From: Synergistales bacterium
GTDB taxonomy: Bacteria; Synergistota; Synergistia; Synergistales; Aminithiophilaceae
Length of the DNA: 33,750 nt
NCBI GenBank assembly: GCA_018433595.1
Contig: JAHDQY010000040.1
Span: 1-33,750 of the forward strand
Direction of reading: 5' to 3'
Both the position numbers and the translations under genes were made by a program. Below, in pieces: positions 1,597-15,142 of this stretch (positions within the stretch are counted from its first letter, which is position 1; the number at the start of each line of letters is the position of its first letter). The notes beneath the pieces were generated by a model. It saw only the letters and a program-made list of their open reading frames with translations, was not told the DNA's origin and ran no database searches.

Positions 1597-3585
1597 CTAC
1601 CCTTCGATCTCCCCTATCAGCCGCTCCAGCGACATTTTTGCGTCGCCGAGGAGCAACTCCACATGAGGCATCCCGTAGAGGGAGTTGTCCACCCCCGAGT
1701 AACCGGGATGGGTATCGAGGTTGCAGACGATCACATGTTTCGCAGCGGCGACGTCGAGAACGGGCATGCCGTAGATCGGCGTGCCTTCGGCCGTGTTGGC
1801 GGCGGGGTTGACGACGTCGCAGGCTCCCACCACCAGGACCAGGTCCGTCTCGGGGAATTCGGGGTTGACGTCGTCCATCTCGCGCAGCTTTTCATACGGC
1901 ACGTCCACTTCGGCGAGAAGAACGTTCATGTGGCCCGGCATACGGCCCGCCACGGGGTGGATGGCGAAGTCGACCTGCACGCCCCTCGCCTCCAGGACGT
2001 CGACGAGTCGCTTCACCTGACCCTGGGCCTGGGCGATGGCCATCCCGTAGCCCGGAACGACGATGACTTTCCGGGCGGCCGCCAAAACCTTCCCCGGCTC
2101 TTTCCGATCCGCCGCCTGAACGGTCGCCCCCAAGTCCTGGGCGGACACGTCGGAAGCTCCCCCCTCGATCTCCCCTATCAGCCGCTCCAGCGACACTTTT
2201 GCGTCGCCGAGGAGCAGCTCCACATGAGGCATCCCGTAGAGGGAGTTGTCCACCCCCGAGTAACCGGGATGGGTATCGAGGTTGCAGACGATCACATGTT
2301 TCGCAGCGGCGACGTCGAGAACGGGCATGCCGTAGATGGGCGTGCCTTCGGCCGTGTTGGCGGCAGGGTTGACGACGTCGCAGGCTCCCACCACCAGGAC
2401 CACGTCCGTCTCGGAGAATTCGGGGTTGACGTCGTCCATCTCGCGCAGCTTTTCATACGGCACGTCCACTTCGGCGAGAAGAACGTTCATGTGGCCCGGC
2501 ATACGGCCCGCCACGGGGTGAATGGCGAAGTCGACCTGCACGCCCCTCGCCTCCAGGACGTCGACGAGCCGCTTCACCTGACCCTGGGCCTGGGCGATGG
2601 CCATCCCGTAGCCCGGAACGACGATGACTTTCCGGGCGGCCTTCAGGATAGCTCCGGCGGGTTCCTCCCGCACCGCCTTCTCCGGCTGATCAGCGGCTTC
2701 TCCTGTTCCAGCCGCAGGTGCTTCGCGAGCCGGAGCCTTATTCGCTCCGGCGGGGGCACCGTTATTGAAGGGTTTGGCAATGGCCCCGCTCAGGACATTC
2801 ATCAGAGAGCGGTTCATCGCTCTGCACATGATCCGGGTCAGAATAAGGCCCGATGCTCCGACGATGGCCCCCACGGCCACAAGCAACGGCTCCGACAGGG
2901 TGAAGCCCACGATGGCTCCGGCAAGCCCTGAAAAGGAGTTGAGAAGCGAGATGGTGATCGGCATATCCGCGCCGCCGACCCGTATGGCGAAAAGGACCCC
3001 GTAACTCAGCGAAAGCAGCATGACCAGAAGCGAAAGGGACACGACGGCGGACTCCATCGACAGCGAGAAGACCGCCATCGCCAGCGCCAGCACGATGCTT
3101 CCGTTTGACAGGACATTATGCCCTGCAAGACGCACGGGCCGCTGCGTCATGCGCCTGTCCAGCTTCGCCGCGGCAATCAGGCTGCCGCTGAGAGTCAGGC
3201 CGCCCACAATGAGAGCAAGCTGGCTGGTCAGCTTGGTGAAAACGGCCATCTGACCGTATTTGTCCAGGATTTCGGACATCGCCACCAGAGCCGACGCTCC
3301 TCCGCCAAGCCCGTTCAGCAAGGCGACCATTTGAGGCATCTGTATCATGGTTGTGCGCACCGCCATGACGTAACCCAAAACGCCGCCTATCGCCATGGCC
3401 GCCCAAAGCAGGGGCACGCTCAGGATGCCGTTATTCCAAAGCACCAGCAAGACCGCCGCCGCCATGCTGAGCGCGCTCAGCCGGTTGCCTCGAACGGCGG
3501 TACGGGGGGAACTCATCCATTTGATGCCGAGGAGAACCAGCCCGGCAAGAACGACCGATATCACGGCATAACAGGTTTGATTCAT
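1597..3585 (-). CDS. pntB: NAD(P) transhydrogenase beta subunit with a duplicated NADP-binding domain III
   Basis: PntB is the membrane subunit of pyridine nucleotide transhydrogenase, which couples hydride transfer between NAD(H) and NADP(H) to proton movement. The protein is 662 aa, against about 460 usually. Residues 1-280 are the hydrophobic domain II (QMVALLNGLGG, ISLLNSFSG). A Pro/Ala-rich linker follows (about 280-312). Domain III then appears twice, at residues 316-474 and 503-661, joined by a 28-residue linker. Each copy has VPGYGMAIAQAQ, HPVAGRMPGHMN, GACDVVNPAAN and GYSGVDNSLYG. Both copies read VIVCNLD where E. coli PntB has VIVFKRS, the 2'-phosphate contacts. The only His in domain II is in LAGHNV, probably outside the membrane. 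The ATG lies 14 nt after the pntAB stop, with AGGG upstream. Identity as PntB is certain; what the extra domain does is unknown. Confidence 0.95.
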   Translation of the reverse strand: MNQTCYAVISVVLAGLVLLGIKWMSSPRTAVRGNRLSALSMAAAVLLVLWNNGILSVPLLWAAMAIGGVLGYVMAVRTTMIQMPQMVALLNGLGGGASALVAMSEILDKYGQMAVFTKLTSQLALIVGGLTLSGSLIAAAKLDRRMTQRPVRLAGHNVLSNGSIVLALAMAVFSLSMESAVVSLSLLVMLLSLSYGVLFAIRVGGADMPITISLLNSFSGLAGAIVGFTLSEPLLVAVGAIVGASGLILTRIMCRAMNRSLMNVLSGAIAKPFNNGAPAGANKAPAREAPAAGTGEAADQPEKAVREEPAGAILKAARKVIVVPGYGMAIAQAQGQVKRLVDVLEARGVQVDFAIHPVAGRMPGHMNVLLAEVDVPYEKLREMDDVNPEFSETDVVLVVGACDVVNPAANTAEGTPIYGMPVLDVAAAKHVIVCNLDTHPGYSGVDNSLYGMPHVELLLGDAKVSLERLIGEIEGGASDVSAQDLGATVQAADRKEPGKVLAAARKVIVVPGYGMAIAQAQGQVKRLVDVLEARGVQVDFAIHPVAGRMPGHMNVLLAEVDVPYEKLREMDDVNPEFPETDLVLVVGACDVVNPAANTAEGTPIYGMPVLDVAAAKHVIVCNLDTHPGYSGVDNSLYGMPHVELLLGDAKMSLERLIGEIEG
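1605..2080 (-). repeat. Tandem repeat copy 2 (C-terminal domain III of PntB)
   Basis: This 476-bp unit matches 2166-2641 with an offset of exactly 561 bp and no gaps. By eye there are 8 mismatches (about 98 % identity), giving three amino acid changes (Pro/Ser, Leu/Val, Met/Val). The period of 561 bp is 187 codons, so the frame is kept. Confidence 0.95.
2166..2641 (-). repeat. Tandem repeat copy 1 (first domain III of PntB)
   Basis: This is the partner of 1605-2080. The 85 bp between the two units (2081-2165) are not repeated and encode the linker between the two domain III copies. The match ends abruptly at 2641, where copy 1 continues into the normal domain II-III linker. Confidence 0.95.
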
Positions 3586-3599
3586 GTCGGATACCCTGC

Positions 3600-3872
3600 T
3601 CAGCTCTTGAACATTCTCAGCATGCGGTCGGTGACCAAAAAACCGCCGACCAGGTTGACGCAGGCGAGCACGATGGCGATGAAACCGAGCATTTTGCTTC
3701 CCAGGTCCACCGCCAACGCGGCAGAAACCAGAGAACCGAGAATGGTCACTCCCGAAATGGCGTTCGTCCCTGACATGAGAGGGGTATGAAGCAGGGAGGG
3801 GACTTCACTGATCACCCTGTACCCCAGCCAGGTCGCAATCCCGAAGACCAGCAACAGAAAAAGCGCGTTCAT
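3600..3872 (-). CDS. pntAB: NAD(P) transhydrogenase alpha-2 subunit (membrane part of alpha)
   Basis: This 90-aa integral membrane subunit supplies the first helices of domain II. It has three hydrophobic segments and the family motif SLLHTPLMSGTNAISG, ending in VTDRMLRMFKS like its homologues. The frame is open further upstream, but the ATG at 3872 has AGGAG about 10 nt ahead and gives the normal family length. At the position of the Thermus alpha-2 membrane histidine (IHG) this protein has Ser (ISG), as E. coli does. It lies 22 nt after pntAA and 14 nt before pntB. Confidence 0.93.
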   Translation of the reverse strand: MNALFLLLVFGIATWLGYRVISEVPSLLHTPLMSGTNAISGVTILGSLVSAALAVDLGSKMLGFIAIVLACVNLVGGFLVTDRMLRMFKS

Positions 3873-3894: not shown

Positions 3895-5070
3895 TTAGTT
3901 GAGGCCCATAGCCTCCCTTGCTCCGGCGTGAACGAGCTTGCCGTCCTTGCAGACCAGCGAAGAGGCGGTGATCTCGTCGCCGAGATCGATGAAGATCTTG
4001 CCGTCTCTGGTAAAGGTCGAGGTGTAGTGGAAGATGTTTTTCGCAAACATCATGGTGGAACTTGACGGCATCATACCGGGTATGTTTTTTGTGCCGTCGA
4101 TGCTGATGCCGTATTTTTGGGTGAGTTCTCCTCCTGCGGTAAGCTCGCAGTTCCCGCCCTGGTCGATAGCCACATCGACAATGGCCGAACCGGGTTTCAT
4201 CGCCTTCACCATCTCTTCGGTCACCAGGACGGGAGCCAGCCTTCCCGGGACAAGGGCCGTGGCGATGACGATATCCGAGTTTACGATGGCCTCCTTGATA
4301 GCTTCTCTTTCCTTAAGCAGCCACTCCTGGGGAAGGTGCCTGGCGTAACCACCCTCTCCCGTAGCCACCTGGGCAGGAACTCCCGTGTCGACGACCTTCG
4401 AGCCGAGGCTCTTGGCATGTTCCGCCGCGTCAGGGCGAATATCCACGGCGTGAACGACGGCACCCAATCTCTTGGCGGTCGCGACAGCCTGAAGGCCCGC
4501 GACTCCCGTGCCCAGCACGGTAACGTTTGCCGGGGGGATCATGCCTACGGCGGATCCGATCATCGGGACGAACTTCGGAAGGCGGTTTGCCGCCATCAGC
4601 ACGGATTTGTATCCCGCGACAGTGCTCATCGACGTGAGGGCGTCCATAGCCTGGGCTCTGGAGATTCGGGGAATGCCGTCCAGCGTGAGCGCTGTCACGC
4701 CTTTCGCCGCAAGGTTCTTGATCATTTCGTGGTTGACAGGAGCGGCAGGGTGCAGGAAGGTCACCAGGACCTGACCTTCATGCAACATGTCGACCTCGTG
4801 CTTGCCCTTCGCGGAATTGAAAAGAGGCTCTTTAACCTTCAAAACCACATCGGCCTGCGCGAAGAGCTCTTCAACATCGCCCACGATCTGGGCGCCGGCG
4901 CTCGCATACTCCTCATCAGCAAAATAGGCCTTTGCGCCCGCCCCTTTCTCCAACAGCACCCTGGCGCCACCAGCGACAAACTGTTTGACCGTTTCAGGGA
5001 TTGCAGCGACCCGCCCCTCTCCGTGCATGATTTCCTTTGGGATCCCGAAAGTCAAACCCTTGAACTGCAT
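3895..5070 (-). CDS. pntAA: NAD(P) transhydrogenase alpha-1 subunit (NAD-binding domain I)
   Basis: This is the soluble domain I that binds NAD(H), 391 aa, the size of the separate alpha-1 subunits of three-subunit transhydrogenases such as that of Rhodospirillum rubrum. It belongs to the alanine dehydrogenase/PntA family. It opens FGIPKEIMHGEGRVAAIPE. A Rossmann motif GTGVAGLQA is followed by the acidic residue of VDIRPDA that normally selects NAD. The C-terminal SSTMMFAKNIF is also typical. The frame extends 20 codons upstream, but AGGAGG lies 9 nt before the ATG at 5070 (MQFKGLTFG), which matches the family N-terminus. It is the first gene of the three-gene operon. Confidence 0.95.
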   Translation of the reverse strand: MQFKGLTFGIPKEIMHGEGRVAAIPETVKQFVAGGARVLLEKGAGAKAYFADEEYASAGAQIVGDVEELFAQADVVLKVKEPLFNSAKGKHEVDMLHEGQVLVTFLHPAAPVNHEMIKNLAAKGVTALTLDGIPRISRAQAMDALTSMSTVAGYKSVLMAANRLPKFVPMIGSAVGMIPPANVTVLGTGVAGLQAVATAKRLGAVVHAVDIRPDAAEHAKSLGSKVVDTGVPAQVATGEGGYARHLPQEWLLKEREAIKEAIVNSDIVIATALVPGRLAPVLVTEEMVKAMKPGSAIVDVAIDQGGNCELTAGGELTQKYGISIDGTKNIPGMMPSSSTMMFAKNIFHYTSTFTRDGKIFIDLGDEITASSLVCKDGKLVHAGAREAMGLN

Positions 5071-5389: not shown

Positions 5390-6295
5390 CTATCGGGGCA
5401 GCTGATAATCATATTTTCCAAGAACCCATTTGGGGAATTCAAACCGAACCGTTTTCCGGGGATCGACGACCTGGCAGAATTTAAGGTGCCCGACCAGGCT
5501 CATCAGCATGCCGGCATCATTTAAGGGCATGCCGGCAATATCCGTCAGGAATCTTGCCATCCGCAGCGTGGCCTCCGTCGCCGCCTCATCAGTCGTCGGG
5601 GCGGAAAAAACGGTCGCCACGAGATCCTTCGTTTCCAGAAAGGGGGTCGGCAAACCCGGCATTGGGACGGTTTCCGCCTTCATCCGCACAGTCCCGGCAG
5701 CTTCCGCGCCGCAGACGACGACTTCGCCGTCACCCATCACCGAATGCATATCACCGCACCCGAAGAGCGCCCCATCCACTCCCGCCGTGAAAAAAACGCT
5801 CGTCCCCTCGCCGATGAGGGTACAATCCATATTGCCGCCGTGAGTGCCCGGCACTCCATTGGGGATGCGCCCTTCCGCCGGAGCCACTCCGATCACGCCG
5901 ATCATCGGCTTCACCGGGATACGTACTTTTTCCTTGAAAACGACGTTTCCCGAATCAAAGCCGAGAATCGCCGTCTCCATATCGCGGATCATACCGCCCA
6001 ACACGCCTTCTCCCGGGACGGTGACCATGACGGCATGATCGGCCACCGACACCTCCAGCAGCTTGACACGCAGAACATCGCCGGCCTTGACGCCTTCAAT
6101 ATACACCGGACCGGTTGCCGGATTGACGTGATCCCAATCCAACGATTCCACCAGATCGGCCTCGCTCTGGAGCTGACCTTCGAAGCAATCATGCGTTTCC
6201 AGCAAGACTTCCTGCCCCTGGGAAACACGCAAAGCCGGTTCCAGATGGGGGTCAAAAGCAAAAAAAAGCTTATCTCGCTTGACGGTATGAATCAT
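5390..6295 (-). CDS. Acetamidase/formamidase family protein
   Basis: This is a predicted amide hydrolase of the FmdA/AmdA family, releasing ammonia from formamide, acetamide or a related small amide. At 301 aa it covers the full length typical of the short bacterial members. Visible family features are the N-terminal DPHLEPALRV, the region ETHDCFEGQL, DWDHVNPATGPVYIEG, GTHGGNMD and the GCGDMHSVMGDGEV block with conserved His/Asp residues. The ATG at 6295 has AGGAG about 10 nt upstream. No membrane segment or signal peptide is seen, so it is cytoplasmic. It has its own terminator and a candidate promoter, and is divergent from a second amidase of a different family at 6640. The pair suggests amide nitrogen use. 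The exact substrate cannot be read from sequence. Confidence 0.88.
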   Translation of the reverse strand: MIHTVKRDKLFFAFDPHLEPALRVSQGQEVLLETHDCFEGQLQSEADLVESLDWDHVNPATGPVYIEGVKAGDVLRVKLLEVSVADHAVMVTVPGEGVLGGMIRDMETAILGFDSGNVVFKEKVRIPVKPMIGVIGVAPAEGRIPNGVPGTHGGNMDCTLIGEGTSVFFTAGVDGALFGCGDMHSVMGDGEVVVCGAEAAGTVRMKAETVPMPGLPTPFLETKDLVATVFSAPTTDEAATEATLRMARFLTDIAGMPLNDAGMLMSLVGHLKFCQVVDPRKTVRFEFPKWVLGKYDYQLPR

Positions 6296-6405
6296 GCCCT
6301 TACATCTCCTTTACAGAGCCACTCTCTCTAAGGATCTCAAATCCCTCCGCGAAAATATCGTTTGCCATTTTTCCGCCAGTCGTGGCTCTTTACTATTTTT
6401 ATTAA

Positions 6406-6434
6406 ATAATACTGTTTTATGGGCATAAAATAAA
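6406..6434 (-). promoter_or_regulatory. Candidate promoter of the formamidase gene, in an AT-rich patch
   Basis: On the minus strand TTTATT (6429-6434) and TATTAT (6406-6411) are 17 nt apart. Bases about 6391-6435 are strikingly AT-rich compared with the rest of the window. The leader to the ATG is about 105 nt. A small CGCGA/TCGCG hairpin with an A/T loop lies just upstream (about 6442-6456). Confidence 0.4.
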
Positions 6435-6467
6435 GGGGATTCGCGAAAAAAATCGCGCACCCTCTCA

Positions 6468-6511
6468 ATTACTGGAGACAACTTCCGGACTCGAACCGGA
6501 GACATCATCCC
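6468..6511 (-). repeat. 3' fragment of a tRNA-Thr gene (direct repeat of 8171-8214)
   Basis: The 44 nt from 6468 match the 3' end of the intact tRNA-Thr(GGT) gene plus four bases beyond its CCA. ATTACTGGAG is shared, then a 23-nt block (6481-6503) covering the T-arm and part of the acceptor stem is identical, then CATCC. There are four mismatches, three of them in stems. The anticodon loop and the 5' half are missing, so this is a tRNA remnant, not a gene. Same-orientation repeats of a tRNA 3' end are what site-specific integration or recombination at a tRNA leaves behind. No integrase is present in the window. Confidence 0.8.
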
Positions 6512-6639
6512 TGCCACGACTTAACAGGGCAAAAGCGCCTGCCGACATGATGTCGTTGGAGTACATATCCGAACGTCGGGAAGCAGTTGCCCCATGCCCT
6601 GGCGCAACCCATGTATTCAATGAAGGGAAGGGTGAGAAA

Positions 6640-7872
6640 ATGCCCCAAAGACCGGCAACACCATCGAATCCCACTGCCATCGAAGCTTCCGGCGCGTTCG
6701 TCGAAACCGTGTCACTGAAACCCTTTCAATCCGGCACACTCGACGGCCTCACCTTTACCGTCAAAGACAACATCGACCTGGGAGGACACAAAACTTCCTT
6801 CGGGAACCCGAGCTGGCGGGACGAGCATCCCGCAGCGATCCACAATGCGCTCTGCGTCGATCAGCTCCTGGCTGCCGGCGCAACCTGCATCGGGAAGGTC
6901 GTCGCCGACGAATTCACCTATAGCCTGGACGGCGAAAGCCACTTCTTCGGCACTCCGCTCAACGCAAAGGCTCCGGACCGCATACCGGGAGGATCTTCCA
7001 GCGGTTCGGCTTCATCGGTTGCCTGCGGGCTCGCCGATTTCTCGATAGGGACGGATTCGGGGGGATCGATCCGAGTTCCGGCGAGTCTATGCGGGATCTG
7101 GGGAATGCGGCCTTCGCTCCACCGGATATCCGAAGCGGGCGTACTGCCTTTCATGCCTAGCGTAAGCACGGTCGGTGCCGTGGCAAACGACTTCGAGACC
7201 CTCAACCGAGTCATGCGGGTTCTGCTCAGGAGCGGGATCGAGGACACCGCCAGGCTGGAAAGGATCGTCATGCTCGATGACGCGTTCCACATCGCAGACG
7301 AATCCGTCCGCGACGCTGCGAAAAACATGATCAAGCGCATGGCAAAACGCGCCGCCATCACGCTCGAACATGCCGGTTTTTCCGACGTCGCCGATCGAGA
7401 TATGGACCTCTCCTCCTGCAACGAGGACGCTTTGCGGAACCTGCAAACGATGGAATTCGAAAATACGGTGGGGGACTGGATTGAGAGCTACAAGCCGAAG
7501 CTCGGATCCACGTTTTCGATGGCCTACGGGAACGTGAAATCCTTCGACCGGACAACGGTCATGGAATCCCTCGATCTGTGCGAACGCCTTTTCCGGGGAA
7601 TCAACCGCTTTCTGAAGACCGGGACCATCATCTGCTTCCCCACTACGCCCACGGTGGCCCCGCCGAAGGAATCTCTCAATACGATGGAAGCAGTTCTGGA
7701 TTTCTACGACCGGACGATGGCCGTGACATCCTTTTCGGGAGCAGGGCGCTTGCCCGAGATCTCGGCACCTCTACTGTCGATCGACGGATGCCCCGTCGGG
7801 TTGTCCTTTGCGGCCGCCCATTACCAGGACGAGTTCCTTTTGAAGGCCCTCCGGGAGCTGCTCCACCCCTGA
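6640..7872 (+). CDS. Amidase (amidase signature family, AMI1-like)
   Basis: This 410-aa cytoplasmic amidase signature enzyme hydrolyses a carboxamide to acid and ammonia. The Ser-cisSer-Lys triad is readable: Lys42 in FTVKDNID, cis-Ser119 in GGSSSGSA and nucleophile Ser143 in GTDSGGSIR. The 24-residue spacing between the two serines is as in the family. The N-terminal half (SFGNPSW, APDRIPGGSSSGSA, VPASLCGIWGMRPS) resembles plant indole-3-acetamide hydrolase AMI1 and bacterial relatives, rather than GatA. No gatB or gatC is nearby. The frame starts earlier, but GAAGGGAAGGG just before the ATG at 6640 marks the start. It is a lone plus-strand gene among minus-strand genes, lying between the tRNA fragment at 6468 and the intact tRNA, which hints at acquisition. 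The substrate is unknown. Confidence 0.88.
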   Translation: MPQRPATPSNPTAIEASGAFVETVSLKPFQSGTLDGLTFTVKDNIDLGGHKTSFGNPSWRDEHPAAIHNALCVDQLLAAGATCIGKVVADEFTYSLDGESHFFGTPLNAKAPDRIPGGSSSGSASSVACGLADFSIGTDSGGSIRVPASLCGIWGMRPSLHRISEAGVLPFMPSVSTVGAVANDFETLNRVMRVLLRSGIEDTARLERIVMLDDAFHIADESVRDAAKNMIKRMAKRAAITLEHAGFSDVADRDMDLSSCNEDALRNLQTMEFENTVGDWIESYKPKLGSTFSMAYGNVKSFDRTTVMESLDLCERLFRGINRFLKTGTIICFPTTPTVAPPKESLNTMEAVLDFYDRTMAVTSFSGAGRLPEISAPLLSIDGCPVGLSFAAAHYQDEFLLKALRELLHP

Positions 7873-8175: not shown

Positions 8176-8251
8176 TGGAGCCGACTTCCGGACTCGAACC
8201 GGAGACCCCATCCTTACCATGGATGTGCTCTACCTGCTGAGCTAAGTCGGC
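8176..8251 (-). tRNA. tRNA-Thr (anticodon GGT)
   Basis: 76 nt including an encoded CCA. The acceptor stem is GCCGACT/AGTCGGC. The anticodon arm CATCC-ATGGTAA-GGATG has GGT at positions 34-36, and the T-arm is TCCGG-TTCGAGT-CCGGA. It is the last tRNA of the cluster. Its 3' part is repeated at 6468-6511. Confidence 0.97.
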
Positions 8252-8266
8252 CTATCGGCATAAATA

Positions 8267-8352
8267 TGGTGGTGGGAGTAGGATTTGAACCTACGTAGGC
8301 GCTAGCCGGCAGATTTACAGTCTGCTGCCTTTGACCACTCGGCCATCCCACC
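8267..8352 (-). tRNA. tRNA-Tyr (anticodon GTA)
   Basis: 86 nt including CCA, with a long variable arm as expected of a class II tRNA. The acceptor stem is GGTGGGA/TCCCACC. The anticodon arm GCAGA-CTGTAAA-TCTGC gives GTA. It is 15 nt upstream of tRNA-Thr(GGT), so the two are processed from one transcript. Confidence 0.97.
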
Positions 8353-8412
8353 ACATCGACTCCGCCCTCGATACGGCCTCTTGCAAACCCTTGCCGTTAC
8401 TGGACCTGAGGT

Positions 8413-8441
8413 ATATTACCCCAGACTCCCCCGTCTGTCAA
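8413..8441 (-). promoter_or_regulatory. Internal promoter for tRNA-Tyr and tRNA-Thr(GGT)
   Basis: On the minus strand a perfect TTGACA (8436-8441) and TAATAT (8413-8418) are spaced by 17 nt, in the 118-nt gap behind tRNA-Thr(TGT). This would let the Tyr-Thr pair be transcribed separately from the first tRNA. Confidence 0.75.
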
Positions 8442-8470
8442 CCGCACCGTTCGAAGTGCGAAAAAAGCCC

Positions 8471-8546
8471 TGGAGCCGGCGGCCGGACTTGAACCGGCGA
8501 CCTGCTGATTACAAGTCAGCTGCTCTACCAGCTGAGCTACACCGGC
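8471..8546 (-). tRNA. tRNA-Thr (anticodon TGT)
   Basis: 76 nt including CCA. The acceptor stem is GCCGGTG/CGCCGGC (one G-T-type pair) and the anticodon arm GCTGA-CTTGTAA-TCAGC gives TGT. It is followed by GGGCTTTTTTC, where transcription may partly end before the next promoter. Confidence 0.97.
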
Positions 8547-8650: not shown

Positions 8651-8947
8651 TCAAAGGCTCTCCTCGACAGATTGGACGAAGGCCTTGATGCCGGCCCGGT
8701 GCACCTCTTCCCTTTCCTTGAAGACCCGCAGCTTCTCCAGAAGCCCCGCAACGGTTTCTTCGTCGCCGACGATGAAGAAGGCCCAGTTTTTGCCGGGGAA
8801 GACGGCGTCGTTCCAGTGTGTCTTACAGCCGTGGTGACAGCCGAGGACGTCGGGCCAGGTCGTATATCCTTCGACGCCGTCACGGTCCAGGAGGTCAAGG
8901 ACTTCTTCGACGAGGCTCTCGTTACAGAAGATCCAGACTGCCTTCAC
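8651..8947 (-). CDS. Small PII-like protein encoded at the end of the RND efflux operon
   Basis: A 98-aa soluble protein with the alternating strand/helix pattern and length of PII-like (ferredoxin-fold) proteins that often accompany RND transporters. The assignment is from size, pattern and context, not from a decisive motif. It carries a Cys/His cluster (Cys37, His38, His39, Cys41, His44) that could bind a metal. The hydrophobic strand NWAFFIVGDEE is followed by a helix. It starts with GTG at 8947, with AAGGAGG 9 nt ahead, and overlaps the 3' end of the RND pump gene by 26 nt, so the two are translationally linked. It may sense or modulate the pump; this is inference. Confidence 0.6.
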   Translation of the reverse strand: MKAVWIFCNESLVEEVLDLLDRDGVEGYTTWPDVLGCHHGCKTHWNDAVFPGKNWAFFIVGDEETVAGLLEKLRVFKEREEVHRAGIKAFVQSVEESL

Positions 8948-11900
8948 GACGCTTCGCCTCCTTCAGCTCCTGAAATCGCGGGGTCCTGCGGATCCGCTCT
9001 TCGACGATGCTGTACAGGACCGGGACGAGGACGAGGGTGACCAGAGTGGAGAGGGAGAGCCCCCCCATGACGGAGATGGCGAGGGGACGCCAGATTTCGG
9101 CCCCTTCTCCCCGGCTGATCGCCATGGGCAGCATGCCGAAGAAGGTGGTGAGGGTCGTCATGAGGACGGGGCGAAGGCGCCGCTCCCCCGCTTCGAAGAG
9201 CGCCTCGCGAAGGCCGACCCCGCGGGCCCGAACGAGGTTGGTGTAGTCGACGAGGACGATGGCGTTGTTGACGACGATGCCGATGAGCATGATGATCCCC
9301 AGGAAGCCCTGGATCGAGAGGTTGACGCCCGTCAGCAGGTAGGCGAAGACGACACCCGTCAGGGCGAAGGGGACGCTGAACATGATGATGAGAGGGTCGA
9401 GATAGGCCTCATACTGACCGGCCATGACCATGTAGACAAGGATGACCCCCAGCAGGGCCATGAGAGCCAGTTGGCGGAATGCCTCCGACTGCTCTTTTAC
9501 CTCCCCCCCGAACTCGACGGAGATGTCTCCGGGAAGATCCATGGCAGCGACGGCACGGACAGCGTCAGCTGTCACCTGTCCCAGAGCCCGCCCATGGACA
9601 TCGGCTTCGACGGAGATGGTCCGCCGCCGGTTTTTACGGTCGATCTCCGGCGCACCTCGGGTCACCTCCACCCGGGCAATCGAAGAGAGCCGGTGAGGCT
9701 GCCCCGATGCGGAAGGCACCATGAGGCGGTCGAGGACATCCATGTCGTCCCGTTCGTCCTCGTTGAGGCGAAGCCGGATGGGGTAATCGTCCTCCCCTTC
9801 CCAGAAGCTCTCCCGGGTCTTGTGACCGTAGAAGTAGCCTCGCAGGGTCTGCGCCACCGTGGCGGTGCGGACGCCAAGGAGAGCGGCGCGGTCCCGGTCG
9901 ACGTCGACATGAATTTCGGGACGGTCCGGTTTCTGACTCAGGATGACGTCGACGGTTCCCGGGACGGCGCGGATCCGTTCGGCGAGATCTCCGGCGACGG
10001 AGAGGACCTGGCTCAAATCGTCTCCGTAGACTTCGATCTTGAGCGGCTTGGAGCCGAGGAACATGGACTTGACGGGCGAGGAGACGATTACGGTCATCCG
10101 CTCGATGCCGGGTTTGGCGGCAAGCCAGGAGCGGATCTGCTGTGCCACGTCGAAAGCGGAGCGCTTGCGGTCTGACTTGTCGAGAAGCTTGATGCCGACG
10201 GTACCGACGTTGGGGCCTTCTTCCTGTCCCACTGCGGATCCGTAGCCCTCTTCGGTCTGGCCGTCCCACCCGAAGATCCAGCGGGCCTCGGGGACCTCTT
10301 CCTGACAGTAGACGATGATCTCCCGAACCAGCCTGTCGGTCACTTCGTTTTTCGTCCCCTCGGGAAGGCGGAAGGAGATGGAGATCTCTCCCGTATCCGG
10401 GTCTCCCATCAGTTCCGTTCCGATGAAACGGAAACCCAGGAGGGTCAGGACCAAGAGCAGGAAGGCCAGGAGAAGGATCTTTTTCCGGTTCCCGACGGCC
10501 CATTGCAGGAACCTTCTGTAGCCGCGCTCAAGCGCCGACAGGAAGCGCTCGGCCAGGCGCTGGAAACGGGAGGGCCGCGTTTCTGCCCGGAAAACCTTGG
10601 CGGCCAGGACAGGGACAAAGGTGAGAGCGACGGCCAAAGAGGCTGCAACGGCCAAAACCATGACGATGGAGAGAGCCGAGAAGACGACGCCGACGAGGCC
10701 GGAGACCAGGGCGAGGGGGAGCAGAACGACGACGGTGGTCAGCGTCGACGCGATAAGGGCCGAGCCGACCTCTTCGGCCCCGAGGACGGCGGCGACATGG
10801 CGGCGCTCCCCCTGTTCGATGTGGTGAATGATCTGGTCCGTGGAGACGATGGAGTTGTCGACGACCATGCCGCTGGCAACGGCCAGGGCCGAGAGGGTCA
10901 TGATATTGAGGGTGAAACCGAGCTGTCTCATGACCATGAAGGTCATGATGAGGGAGAAGGGGATGGCCGTGCAGACGACGAGAGAGGCCGAAAGACGCTG
11001 CAAGAAGGCCCAGGTGACGAGGAAAACCAGGATGATGCCCGTCACCAGGGAAGTCGTCAGATTTTTCAGCGACATCATGATGTAGTCGGCGGTATTGAAA
11101 ACAACGTCGTAGGCCACGTCCGACGGCAGCCGGTCCTTCATCTTTTCGAGACGATTCATGACGGCCCTGGTGACCTCGACGGTGTTGGCGTCACTGTTTT
11201 TCAAAACGACGAGGACGACGGCAGGCTTCTGCCCCATCCAGCCGTTGACCTCGGCCTCTCTGTAGCCGTCGACGACGGAGGCCACATCGGCGACGCGCAC
11301 GGGACGCCCCCCGACGGAACCGACGATGACCTGGCCGACCTCTTCGAGAGAGCGGAAACGTCCCGGAACACGGAGGTGGTATTGCAGACTGCCCTCCTTG
11401 AGGCTCCCGGCGGGAAGGTTGAGGTTTTCCTGTTCCAGGGCGGCGGCAATGGACTGCAGGGAGAGACGGTATGCCTCAAGGCGCTCAAGATCCACGTCGA
11501 CTCGGATTTCCCTCTCCATGCCGCCATAGAGGAGGATCTGGCCGACACCCTGGACCTGTTTGAGATTTTCGACGATGGTCTTGTCGGCGAAATGGTAGAG
11601 GGCGGGGTAGGAGCGCTCCGCCGTAAGAGCCACGATCGCGACGGGAACCGTTCCTGAAGAGACCCGCAGGATGATGGGCTCCTCCACGTCATCGGGAAGC
11701 TTCCTTTTGGCGAAGGTCACGGCATCTCGGATGTCGCCGACTTTCACATCAAGATCGGAGCCCCATTTGAATTTGACGGAGACGATGGAGAGGTTGTCGA
11801 CGGATTTGGAGTGAAGCTCGTCGACACCCTCGATGAGGGCCATCTGATCCTCCATCTCCTTGGAGACCCGCTGCTCCACATCCTCAGCCGAGGCTCCGGG

Positions 11901-12053
11901 CCAGGTGGTGAGGATCGTGACGACGGGAGGCTCGATGTCGGGGAGCATGTCGAGCTTCATCCCCCAGAGAGCGACAATCCCCAGCAGGAGCGCAGCGACG
12001 AAAATCATCGTCGTCGAAACGGAACGCTTGACGGCCAGTCCGGGCAGCTTCAC
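8922..12053 (-). CDS. RND-family efflux transporter (AcrB/HAE-type inner-membrane pump)
   Basis: A 1043-aa proton-driven inner-membrane pump of the hydrophobe/amphiphile RND family, full length (12 membrane helices, two large periplasmic loops). The N-terminus has helix 1 (MIFVAALLLGIVALWGM), then PDIEPPVVTILTTWPGASAEDVE, a family signature. In helix 4, GMVVDNSIVSTDQ has a single Asp where AcrB has Asp-Asp. In helix 10, GIVVNNAIVLVDY has Asn at the AcrB Lys940 position, as in many non-AcrB HAE pumps. It starts with GTG at 12053, overlapping the adaptor stop by 4 nt. The substrate is unknown: the helix-4 residues do not match the heavy-metal (CzcA) type clearly. Confidence 0.93.
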   Translation of the reverse strand: MKLPGLAVKRSVSTTMIFVAALLLGIVALWGMKLDMLPDIEPPVVTILTTWPGASAEDVEQRVSKEMEDQMALIEGVDELHSKSVDNLSIVSVKFKWGSDLDVKVGDIRDAVTFAKRKLPDDVEEPIILRVSSGTVPVAIVALTAERSYPALYHFADKTIVENLKQVQGVGQILLYGGMEREIRVDVDLERLEAYRLSLQSIAAALEQENLNLPAGSLKEGSLQYHLRVPGRFRSLEEVGQVIVGSVGGRPVRVADVASVVDGYREAEVNGWMGQKPAVVLVVLKNSDANTVEVTRAVMNRLEKMKDRLPSDVAYDVVFNTADYIMMSLKNLTTSLVTGIILVFLVTWAFLQRLSASLVVCTAIPFSLIMTFMVMRQLGFTLNIMTLSALAVASGMVVDNSIVSTDQIIHHIEQGERRHVAAVLGAEEVGSALIASTLTTVVVLLPLALVSGLVGVVFSALSIVMVLAVAASLAVALTFVPVLAAKVFRAETRPSRFQRLAERFLSALERGYRRFLQWAVGNRKKILLLAFLLLVLTLLGFRFIGTELMGDPDTGEISISFRLPEGTKNEVTDRLVREIIVYCQEEVPEARWIFGWDGQTEEGYGSAVGQEEGPNVGTVGIKLLDKSDRKRSAFDVAQQIRSWLAAKPGIERMTVIVSSPVKSMFLGSKPLKIEVYGDDLSQVLSVAGDLAERIRAVPGTVDVILSQKPDRPEIHVDVDRDRAALLGVRTATVAQTLRGYFYGHKTRESFWEGEDDYPIRLRLNEDERDDMDVLDRLMVPSASGQPHRLSSIARVEVTRGAPEIDRKNRRRTISVEADVHGRALGQVTADAVRAVAAMDLPGDISVEFGGEVKEQSEAFRQLALMALLGVILVYMVMAGQYEAYLDPLIIMFSVPFALTGVVFAYLLTGVNLSIQGFLGIIMLIGIVVNNAIVLVDYTNLVRARGVGLREALFEAGERRLRPVLMTTLTTFFGMLPMAISRGEGAEIWRPLAISVMGGLSLSTLVTLVLVPVLYSIVEERIRRTPRFQELKEAKRREGSLDLL

Positions 12054-13186
12054 TCCCGAGACACCTCCAGGAGGACACCGTCCCGCAAGGAGCCGGAACG
12101 GGTCCGAACGACGATATCCTCCTCGCTGAGGCCATCGATGATTTCAATCCAGTTGCCCTCTTCGAAGCCCGTCTTGACGATACGGCTGCGGGCCCTTCCG
12201 TCGCCGTCGACGACGTAACATATCTGTTCTCCCGTGCCTTCCAGGCGGAAGAGGGCCTCCCGAGGAAGAGCCCTGCCCCGGCGCTCGCCGGCATAGATCG
12301 TGACTCTGGCAAAGAGCCCCGGCCGAAGCCTCCCGTCGCTTTCGAGAAGGACTTCGACGTCGCCGGTTCGAGTGGCCCCGTCAAGGGCCGGAGAGAGACG
12401 GCTGACGGCCCCCTGAAAGGTCTCGCCGTTCAGGGCGTCGATGGTGAGCGTCACCTCCTGCCCCGTTTTGATGCGCAGAAAGGAACGCTCCGGAAGGGCT
12501 CCCTTGACCTTGACCCGGTCCTGGCGATTGATGACAAAGGCCGGCGAGACGACATTGGAGCTGTCGCCGGGATCGATGAGGCGAGCGGCGACAACGCCGT
12601 CGACGGGAGCGGCAAGGCGATGGTAGCCCATCTGCGTGACAAGCTCTCCCTTGGCCTCCCGGGCCTGGAGAAGCGCCTTCTCCGCCGCCTCCCGGACCGC
12701 CGTCGCGGCCTCGTGTTGACCCTTGACGTGATCGTAGCTCTGGCGGCTGACGACCTCCTCTTCGAGAAGGCTCCGGAACCGCTCGTGATCAAGGCGCAGC
12801 GTCTCCTCCTGGGCACGGGCCTGACGCAGCCCGGCCGAGGCGGCCGCGACGGCGGCCTCGGCCTGAGCCAATCCGGCACTCAGCAGCGTGTCATCGAGAA
12901 GGGCCAGCACCTGGCCCTCGCGAACGACATCGCCGACATCGACGGTAACGGAGAGGACGGTCCGTCCCGGAAGTTTGGCGACGACGGCAGCCGATTCCTC
13001 GGGCTCAAGGGTCCCGACAAAACGGAACGTTTCCCGGAAAAGATGCGGCTCCAGTCGGGTGACCTCCACGGGAAGGCTTTTCTCCAAGCCGCTCTCATCG
13101 ACAAGATGACGGGCCTGAAAGCCGCGAAAGACGACCAGGCCCAGAAAGAGCAGGACCAAGGAGAGGGGGAGAACGATTCGCTTCAT
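12050..13186 (-). CDS. RND efflux periplasmic adaptor (membrane fusion protein)
   Basis: A 378-aa adaptor linking the pump to the outer-membrane channel. It has an N-terminal membrane anchor or signal (MKRIVLPLSLVLLFLGLVVF), then a biotinyl-lipoyl half-domain (GTLEPEESAAVVAKLPGRTV, VDVGDVVREGQVLALLDD). A coiled-coil hairpin rich in Ala, Glu and Arg covers about residues 100-185, then the second lipoyl half (HRLAAPVDGVVAARLIDPGD) and a beta-barrel/membrane-proximal domain. No lipobox Cys is seen at the N-terminus. ATG at 13186 overlaps the stop of the TolC-like gene (ATGA), and its own stop overlaps the GTG of the pump. Confidence 0.92.
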   Translation of the reverse strand: MKRIVLPLSLVLLFLGLVVFRGFQARHLVDESGLEKSLPVEVTRLEPHLFRETFRFVGTLEPEESAAVVAKLPGRTVLSVTVDVGDVVREGQVLALLDDTLLSAGLAQAEAAVAAASAGLRQARAQEETLRLDHERFRSLLEEEVVSRQSYDHVKGQHEAATAVREAAEKALLQAREAKGELVTQMGYHRLAAPVDGVVAARLIDPGDSSNVVSPAFVINRQDRVKVKGALPERSFLRIKTGQEVTLTIDALNGETFQGAVSRLSPALDGATRTGDVEVLLESDGRLRPGLFARVTIYAGERRGRALPREALFRLEGTGEQICYVVDGDGRARSRIVKTGFEEGNWIEIIDGLSEEDIVVRTRSGSLRDGVLLEVSRE

Positions 13187-14541
13187 TGCCTGTCGATATC
13201 TCCTTTCATGCTCGAATCTCTTCCCAGACCAACAGCGTAGGCAAGATCGGCATCGGCCTGAAAGGCGTCGTAGACGGCCTGAACCAGCTGCGTCCGGGCA
13301 TTGGTGAGGGCCACCTGGGCGTCGAGGACGTCAAGGTTGGTCCCGACCTGAGCCTTGTAGCGCCGCAGGGCCATGCGATGATCCTCCTCGGCCAGAGTCA
13401 CCTGGTCGACAGCGACACGGAAGCGCTGCAAGGCCGAGTCGAGAGCGAGGCGAGCCGTCGAGACTTCAAGCAGAACCTGCTGGCGGAGGTCGTCCATTCG
13501 CGCCATTGCCTCCTGGGCCGCCGCTTCAGCTCTCTCCACGTTGGAACGGACCTCCCCGGAATCGTAGAGACGCCACTGAGCGGCCAGGGTCACCTTCCAC
13601 TGATCCTGCAGGTCGGGATAGAAGGTATCACCGACATCGCTGGCCTCGGCCTCGAAAACAACCTGAGGCCTGGCCTGCCCCGCCGCAGCCTTGGCCGTAA
13701 ATTCGGCAATGGACCGAACCGCCTGGAGCGCCTTCAGCTCAGGCCGGGAGGCAATGGCCGCCGCCTCGGCCTGGGCGAGATCAAGCAAGGCAAACTCCGG
13801 CAGCTCTTTGAGCGGCTCGGGTAACAGCATTTCCTCTCCCAGGGGGACACCGAGAGCCCGCTCCAGCCCTTTCCGGGCCACCTCCACGGCATTGGCCGCC
13901 CGAATCCGCCCCAACTCGGCGTCGGAGAGGGAGACCTGGGCCCTGAGGAGCTCGTTTTTGGCGACAAGACCGTTGGCGAAGAGCGCCTCGGCATCCTTGC
14001 GATGCCCCTCGGCCAGAGCCACCGCCTCCTGGGCGACCTCCAGAGCGGCCCGGGCCTGCTGGAGACCGAAATAGGCCCGGCTGGCGCCGTTGAGAACCGT
14101 CTGAACGGTCCGGATCTCCTCCGCCCTTCGGGCTTCGGCCTCCAGCCGGGAAGCCGCCAGGTTGGCCTGAAGAGTGCCGCCGCTGTAGAGAACCTGGGTC
14201 AGCGTCAACGCCGCTTTCCAGGTCTCCTTGAAGCCGTCCCGGACAAAGCCGGGGCCCGGAATGACGGGTTTTAGAGGTTCCTCATTGTAGCGGATGACGG
14301 CGAGAGAGGCGTCCAGGCGGGGCCCCAGTTTGGACGCCTCTTTTCGCGAAGCCGCCTCGGTCTGGCGGACCCGTTCCCGCGCCGCAGCGATCTGACCGTT
14401 GTGGCTTTCAGCGAGATCGAGGGCCCTTTCCAGCGTCAGTACCTCTCCGGCCCACACCCGCCGCCCCAAGGCGAGCGTCACGACGCAGAGAACCACCAGC
14501 AGGGCCATTCTCCACAGGCGGAACCGATGGAAATCAGACAT
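13183..14541 (-). CDS. TolC-like outer-membrane efflux channel protein
   Basis: A 452-aa outer-membrane channel subunit of the OEP/TolC family. The N-terminus is a signal peptide (basic start, hydrophobic LLVVLCVVTLALG, then about VWAGEV). Two homologous helical repeats follow, with Ala/Glu/Gln-rich coiled coils and the motifs LTLTQVLYSGG and QWRLYDSGEVRSNVERAEA. The C-terminal repeat contains VGTNLDVLDAQVALTNART, typical of the family. The open frame extends 54 codons upstream into tetR, but the ATG at 14541 has GGGGGAGAGAG just ahead and starts the signal peptide. It overlaps the end of tetR by 8 nt. It completes a tripartite pump with the two genes downstream. Confidence 0.92.
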   Translation of the reverse strand: MSDFHRFRLWRMALLVVLCVVTLALGRRVWAGEVLTLERALDLAESHNGQIAAARERVRQTEAASRKEASKLGPRLDASLAVIRYNEEPLKPVIPGPGFVRDGFKETWKAALTLTQVLYSGGTLQANLAASRLEAEARRAEEIRTVQTVLNGASRAYFGLQQARAALEVAQEAVALAEGHRKDAEALFANGLVAKNELLRAQVSLSDAELGRIRAANAVEVARKGLERALGVPLGEEMLLPEPLKELPEFALLDLAQAEAAAIASRPELKALQAVRSIAEFTAKAAAGQARPQVVFEAEASDVGDTFYPDLQDQWKVTLAAQWRLYDSGEVRSNVERAEAAAQEAMARMDDLRQQVLLEVSTARLALDSALQRFRVAVDQVTLAEEDHRMALRRYKAQVGTNLDVLDAQVALTNARTQLVQAVYDAFQADADLAYAVGLGRDSSMKGDIDRQ

Positions 14542-15142
14542 AACTCTCTCCCCCCTCGATGATCCTTTTGACGGTATAACGCCAGAGATGCTTGGCTCTT
14601 GCGACGTCGAGGTTGACGCCCAGCTGGAGAATGAGGCCGTCGAAGGCGACGCCGAGGCTTTCCAGAATCTCGTCGACCCGCTTTCCGTCGACCTTTTCGT
14701 CAAAACGCGTGAAAGCCCTGACGAAGAGCGCCTTCAGCTGGAGAAAGATGGCCCCGGTCATCTCTCTGTAGAGATCCCGGATCTCCTCTTGTCCCCTTTT
14801 TGCTTCGATCCAGATGTTGGCCCACAGAAGCAGCAACTCTCTTTCTTCAAGAAAGGTCTCGAACCTCCGTTCGCCGCGCCTGATGATAAAAGCGACGGGG
14901 TCTTTCGGCCAACTTCCTTCCTGACCCGGATCAAAAGCCTTACGGATCGTTTCGGCCTCCACTTCGAGAATGGCCCGATAAATCTCCTGTTTGCCCTTGA
15001 AATGCCAGTACAAAGCGCCCTTGCTGACTCCGGCCTCACGGGCGATCTGCTCGACGCCTGTGGCGTGAAACCCGCCGAGGGCGAAACAGCGCCTCGCCGT
15101 CTCGAGAATCTTCTCCCTCGTCACTGTTGAGTGATCGACCAT
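14534..15142 (-). CDS. TetR/AcrR-family transcriptional regulator
   Basis: A 202-aa repressor of the TetR family, first gene of the efflux operon and so probably its own regulator. The N-terminal helix-turn-helix is clear: REKILETARRCFALGGFHAT, then GVEQIAREAGVSKGALYWHFKGKQEIYRAIL. The C-terminal ligand domain is all-helical and not conserved enough to name an inducer. A further in-frame ATG at 15172 exists, but the ATG at 15142 has GGGGGA about 6 nt ahead and places the HTH at the usual distance from the N-terminus. Confidence 0.93.
   Translation of the reverse strand: MVDHSTVTREKILETARRCFALGGFHATGVEQIAREAGVSKGALYWHFKGKQEIYRAILEVEAETIRKAFDPGQEGSWPKDPVAFIIRRGERRFETFLEERELLLLWANIWIEAKRGQEEIRDLYREMTGAIFLQLKALFVRAFTRFDEKVDGKRVDEILESLGVAFDGLILQLGVNLDVARAKHLWRYTVKRIIEGGESYV

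Follow-up and report, generated by a model that had tools for sequence, protein, structure and literature searches.

The closest described systems, and the nearest solved folds, are the proton-translocating NAD(P)+ transhydrogenases (PntAA-PntAB-PntB of Rhodospirillum rubrum and Thermus thermophilus, E. coli PntAB, mitochondrial NNT). Tandem swinging carriers are familiar from other enzymes, as in the lipoyl domains of pyruvate dehydrogenase E2 and in tandem ACPs. For transhydrogenases, reviews describe the three-domain plan (dI, dII, dIII) as universally conserved, with a dII-dIII linker of 14-19 aa in all homologues (PMC5742237). NADP(H) specificity of dIII is determined by a K-R-S motif (K424-R425-S426 in E. 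coli PntB) together with loops D and E (PMC9529548). Domain dI belongs to the same superfamily as alanine dehydrogenase (AlaDH; TIGR00518; M. tuberculosis, Phormidium), in which Arg15 and Lys75 bind the carboxylate and His96 and Asp270 catalyse, Ala mutants being inactive (PMC4691113, PMC10401832).

We analyzed a 33,750-nucleotide stretch of a Synergistales genome (hereafter the window), which encodes dI, dII and dIII together, as in proton-translocating transhydrogenase, in a minus-strand operon pntAA-pntAB-pntB. Its features are as follows.

1597..3585, minus strand: pntB, 662 aa, dII then two tandem dIII (ORF call, Pfam PNTB)
2791..3585, minus strand: dII, aa 1-265, membrane domain with nine TM helices predicted and the equivalents of D213/R265 retained
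2659..2808, minus strand: long, disordered dII-dIII linker, about aa 260-309 (tether lengths, AlphaFold)
2161..2640, minus strand: dIII copy 1, codons 316-475 (repeat comparison)
2275..2283, minus strand: N435-L436-D437 of copy 1, replacing the K-R-S NADP motif (alignment)
2080..2160, minus strand: inter-dIII linker, 27 aa, codons 476-502 (repeat comparison, AlphaFold)
1600..2079, minus strand: dIII copy 2, codons 503-662 (repeat comparison)
1714..1722, minus strand: N622-L623-D624 of copy 2, replacing the K-R-S NADP motif (alignment)
3600..3872, minus strand: pntAB, 90 aa, first TM helices of dII (PNTB_4TM match)
3895..5070, minus strand: pntAA, dI, NAD(H)-binding, with alanine dehydrogenase active-site residues (domain match, alignments, AlphaFold, Foldseek)
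4828..4833, minus strand: PntAA K80-E81, equivalent to AlaDH Lys75-Glu76 (alignment)
4750..4752, minus strand: PntAA H107, equivalent to AlaDH His96 (alignment)
4162..4164, minus strand: PntAA D303, equivalent to AlaDH Asp270 (alignment)

The pntB gene, the only such locus in its genome, is one uninterrupted reading frame (1597-3585, minus strand), and its 662-aa product carries two dIII where transhydrogenases carry one per PntB. A sequence-only reading of this DNA had proposed two complete dIII in one polypeptide, and ORF, Pfam, PDB matches and AlphaFold now agree on this point. Pfam PNTB covers the protein in two stretches, both copies match PDB transhydrogenase dIII chains, and the AlphaFold model (mean pLDDT 71.6, from an alignment of only 12 sequences) has nine TM helices followed by two separate Rossmann domains on disordered linkers, with pLDDT below 50 at residues 269-307 and 477-494. 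Recomputing the direct repeat returned the values given earlier, a 476-bp unit at a spacing of 561 bp with exactly 8 mismatches; the plus-strand coordinates were right, the frame and the repeat themselves lying on the minus strand. Codons 316-475 match codons 503-662 in register and the linker codons flanking the two copies are unrelated. The copies differ at nine scattered positions in all, the ninth at the copy ends outside the 476-bp unit. The proposal of recent duplication or homogenisation is supported; the comparison of change types that had been suggested gave 6 synonymous and 3 nonsynonymous differences over codons 318-475 (pS 0.051, pN 0.0084).

Much of the transhydrogenase machinery is retained: the three-domain plan, the RQD loop and NAD site (GxGxxG, Asp) of dI, the Asp213/Arg265 salt-bridge pair of dII and the catalytic residues Tyr315, His345, Arg350 and Asp392 of dIII. 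NCBIfam equivalog scores fall below cut-off (PntB 520.5 against 689 bits; PntA 352 against 383 and 320 against 444), which is weak evidence since E. coli-type proteins are the basis of these models. The operon differs from transhydrogenase in its two dIII per PntB (up to four in relatives), its longer disordered linkers, the N-x-D replacement of K-R-S and the AlaDH-type active site of its dI.

The dIII domains had been described as NADP-binding, but both copies have N-L-D in place of K-R-S. When 67 N-x-D and 109 K-R-S sequences were compared, positions K424, S426 and R425 were the best-separating columns of the entire PntB, being respectively N (100%), D (99%) and hydrophobic in the N-x-D group. 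Loop D is altered too (S404 to T in 100%, P402 to E in 88%), and position 208 of dII, near D213, changes from Pro to Arg. In loop E we found no conserved replacement basic residue, the position before PG being K, H, N, Q, R or S. In other dehydrogenases, changes of this kind, with Asn and Asp replacing Lys, Arg and Ser, favor NAD(H) at the expense of NADP(H). The N-x-D dIII thus likely binds NAD(H), or at least lacks a standard NADP(H) site, and the suggestion that one copy serves as an NADP(H) reservoir is weakened by the loss of K-R-S. On dII alone the N-x-D sequences form one clade (66 sequences, support 1.0). The window operon belongs to this clade, which is rich in anaerobes and consists of relatives of the proton-translocating transhydrogenases. 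To our knowledge, no activity or structure has been described for any N-x-D enzyme.

The same clade is distinguished by its dI. Arg15, Lys75, Glu76, His96, Ser134, Asp198, Asp270 and Asn300 of AlaDH are all present in the window PntAA, and the four residues whose Ala mutants are inactive in AlaDH (PMC10401832) are all found in N-x-D dI. Conservation in the clade is 57/57 for Lys75, His96, Ser134 and Asp270 and 56/57 for Glu76, against 0/31 for Lys75, Glu76 and His96 and 2/31 for Ser134 and Asp270 in the K-R-S group. Arg15, Asn300 and the NAD-binding Asp198 occur in nearly all members of both clades; both have the RQD loop of dI intact. The changes in dI and dIII trace to one ancestral event, and 57/57 therefore means long-term retention and not 57 independent cases. 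Still, that K75, H96 and D270 are fixed in N-x-D while free to vary in K-R-S enzymes suggests that these residues are used. An ancestral position of the N-x-D clade between AlaDH and transhydrogenase is neither favored nor rejected by trees of dI (support 0.32 for the N-clade, p-AU 0.546).

Unlike AlaDH, the window dI has the RQD loop and an operon link to dII and dIII. It scores far under the AlaDH cut-off (192.2 bits for the whole protein, 124.8 and 69.3 in two stretches, against 391.85), and Foldseek places its structural model (mean pLDDT 94.4) nearest to transhydrogenase dI, with no plain AlaDH among the top 50 matches. With the AlaDH active site and the RQD loop both intact, the N-x-D dI appears capable of both amino-acid chemistry and hydride transfer to dIII, and we infer an amino-acid reaction for it.

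The distribution of canonical AlaDH (TIGR00518 matches above cut-off) is supporting evidence for the amino-acid reading, although not decisive. It was found in 11/51 N-x-D genomes and 17/26 others in Bacillota, and in 0/6 and 21/34 in Desulfobacterota; Spirochaetota (2/13 and 7/38) showed no difference. Within the window genus, the three congeners (G001, G002 and G003) have AlaDH and no PntB was found in them as searched, whereas the window genome shows the reverse (0/1 against 3/3). Pooled over these three phyla and one genus, with genomes of unequal completeness and the N-x-D class of some genomes lacking a full locus taken from match identity, canonical AlaDH is rarer in N-x-D genomes (Mantel-Haenszel odds ratio 0.18, p 2e-5, phylogenetically uncorrected). 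Even so, 13 of 74 N-x-D genomes do encode a canonical AlaDH.

Taken with the arrays described below, we tentatively favor, at nearly but not quite an even chance, an amino-acid dehydrogenase of the alanine type, NAD-linked and coupled to protons, that uses the frame of a transhydrogenase and whose tandem dIII are equivalent, tethered working carriers. The main alternative is that the enzyme is still an NADH:NADP+ proton-translocating transhydrogenase, in which N-x-D recognizes NADP(H) by other contacts, the AlaDH-like residues persist as structural relics of an ancestor and the extra dIII merely raise turnover. In its favor, the fold, the RQD loop, D213/R265 and every catalytic residue of dIII have been preserved, and the literature takes the PntAB of syntrophic acetate oxidizers as an NAD(P) transhydrogenase (PMC11932165). 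However, K-R-S and loop D are altered together while loop E gains no basic residue that is conserved, and the fixation of K75, H96 and D270 in N-x-D enzymes, against their free variation in K-R-S enzymes, suggests that they are used. We regard this alternative as a serious one, though we would sooner expect it to be wrong.

In most loci there are no conserved gene neighbors beyond the three pnt genes, and the apparent large clusters in the neighbor comparison are reverse-strand shadows of these genes. In the window, a formamidase/acetamidase-family gene (minus strand) and an amidase-family gene (plus strand) adjoin the pnt operon at 5390-7872; both would release ammonia, and the pairing is not conserved in the relatives examined. 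An AcrB/HlyD/OEP efflux operon lies at 8922-14703, beside three tRNA genes (8176-8546).

The window had been presented as a lone exception. The search for long PntB homologues that had been proposed, which we ran as a scan of genome contigs and as whole-genome searches, instead revealed two to four tandem dIII per PntB in Bacillota, Desulfobacterota and Spirochaetota and, as a fourth group outside the window's own, in one Anaerolineaceae genome. Five PntB have four dIII (L003, L102, L110, L128, L129), four have three (L004, L005, L007, L113) and many have two. Some arrays lie on contigs of about the whole size of their genomes (2,309,262, 3,695,371 and 2,756,918-2,920,478 bp). One, in G1315, which with its kin we take to resemble the Treponema denticola group, lies on a contig of 2,843,201 bp. 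Contigs of other relatives break off within dIII or hold runs of N there, as expected where repeats break assemblies, and our array counts are thus lower bounds. In Desulfovibrio sp. OH1186_COT-070 (L026, 2947-4666), the PntB frame is broken in the first dIII and a further dIII begins in another frame at the contig end; this is probably a mis-assembled array. A separate dIII-like ORF (157 aa, one stop) stands just past a two-dIII pntB at G295:C20:83687-84094 and is perhaps a decaying third copy.

Arrays occur in 25/67 N-x-D sequences against 1/109 K-R-S sequences, and all but one fall in a single PntB clade (66/174 sequences) of the N-x-D type. The exception (L130, genome G777) is the sole K-R-S PntB found with two dIII; its tether is 62 aa long, its dI is ordinary and its genome encodes a canonical AlaDH, which indicates that arrays depend neither on the altered cofactor motif nor on amino-acid chemistry. 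The dII-dIII tether (MNR to PGYG) spans 45-53 aa where K-R-S enzymes have a single dIII and 46-116 aa among N-x-D enzymes. A dII tree of 73 sequences requires no fewer than 11 switches, gains and losses together, between one dIII and an array. Copies of most genes cluster gene by gene on the dIII copy tree, which argues for homogenisation within genes. They cluster by position in a Fermentithermobacillaceae-like group (L003, L004, L083, L084) and in the Treponema-like group, pointing to retention over speciation. In L107, the two copies are 61% identical and lie apart on the copy tree, possibly with different roles.

Copy pairs in arrays are under purifying selection: dN/dS is 0.03-0.33 for all measurable pairs, with dS saturated in L003, L004 and L102, and G314, Y315, G316, H345, R350, D392 and G430 are kept in the alignment of all 64 full array copies. 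Every copy is therefore probably in use. This bears on the idea, raised by the sequence-only reading, that one copy is a spare, or more generally that the second dIII is a neutral by-product of slippage with no functional effect. Copy number does vary from 1 to 4 among related genes, and unequal crossing-over alone would yield the homogenisation seen within genes. But neutral slippage would not be expected to respect the boundary of one clade, and position-matched copies persist in related genomes; together with the low dN/dS of the copy pairs (below 0.35) and the catalytic residues in 64/64 copies, on which we reject the spare-copy reading, this makes a neutral origin improbable. That the duplication is an assembly artefact is very improbable and we reject it as the main reading: the assembly is a draft in 72 contigs and several related contigs stop inside dIII, but short-read assembly usually breaks or collapses such repeats and does not expand them, the surroundings of the two window copies are unique, their linkers are unrelated and their nine differences are scattered, and relatives carry arrays on near-complete, single-contig chromosomes, which speaks against the doubt voiced earlier about expansion.

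Among 188 genomes searched of the window's phylum, PntB was found in the window genome alone, and vertical inheritance within the phylum is rejected on this count. The dII of the window PntB groups with the arrays L003, L004 and L102, and its PntAA is 84% identical to that of L009. The operon was probably acquired horizontally from a Fermentithermobacillaceae-like Bacillota donor with the array already present; in the simplest history, the window copies were homogenised after transfer, by unequal crossing-over or gene conversion.

How might a proton-coupled amino-acid dehydrogenase with several dIII work? In the cycle that we propose, dI would oxidize an amino acid (alanine or similar) with bound NAD+, and the hydride would then pass to the dinucleotide, NAD(H), in dIII. 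This dIII would leave dI and turn to dII, where nucleotide exchange would be tied to proton passage. The net reaction would be amino acid + NAD+ <-> keto acid + NH4+ + NADH, with about one H+. NAD(H) is assumed to be held tightly in dI, as free exchange there would uncouple the cycle. Amino-acid oxidation is uphill under standard conditions, so coupling to a proton gradient would suit syntrophs and fermenters of amino acids: protons flowing in would pull the oxidation, and in reverse, reductive amination to alanine would pump protons and conserve energy. Several flexibly tethered dIII per dI/dII may ease the slow cycle of detaching, turning and reopening; since the nucleotide is locked in dIII during the detached states of ordinary enzymes (PMC9529548), several dIII per dI would raise throughput. 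We infer the NAD(H) in dIII, the amino-acid substrate, the direction, the tight NAD(H) in dI and the benefit of extra dIII. The arrangement recalls lipoyl and ACP arrays in its row of near-identical carriers, its flexible tethers rich in Ala, Glu, Ser and Gly and its single catalytic core. Unlike those carriers, dIII is a Rossmann domain with a non-covalent dinucleotide, and this is an analogy only, with no homology.

Searches of open-access papers turned up neither tandem dIII nor an alanine dehydrogenase coupled to protons. The tandem-dIII array in PntB is new relative to the described three-domain plan, and the amino-acid dehydrogenase, should that reading hold, would add a pump of a new kind. 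It is possible, though we would not presume it, that the clade as a whole represents a new class of primary ion pumps in anaerobes: amino-acid dehydrogenases, NAD-linked and proton-translocating, in which an AlaDH-type dI hands hydride to one to four tethered dIII.

The transhydrogenase mechanism hinges on two dIII per dimer alternating between dI and dII, and enzymes that naturally carry four, six or eight dIII per dimer open this alternation to direct testing. The literature treats PntAB of Syntrophaceticus schinkii as an NAD(P) transhydrogenase whose presence marks syntrophic acetate oxidation, and models of syntrophic acetate oxidizers include PntAB as an NADP-linked step (PMC11932165). 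Yet in strain Sp3 (L008, 2995-5649) the PntB used as such a genomic marker is of the N-x-D type; it has a single dIII, and pntAA lies downstream of pntB, not upstream. Should dI prove to be an amino-acid dehydrogenase, many NAD(P) transhydrogenase annotations would be wrong, a pump would be hidden as PntAB in databases, and a link between the proton gradient and the oxidation of amino acids or the formation of alanine would have been overlooked in anaerobes.
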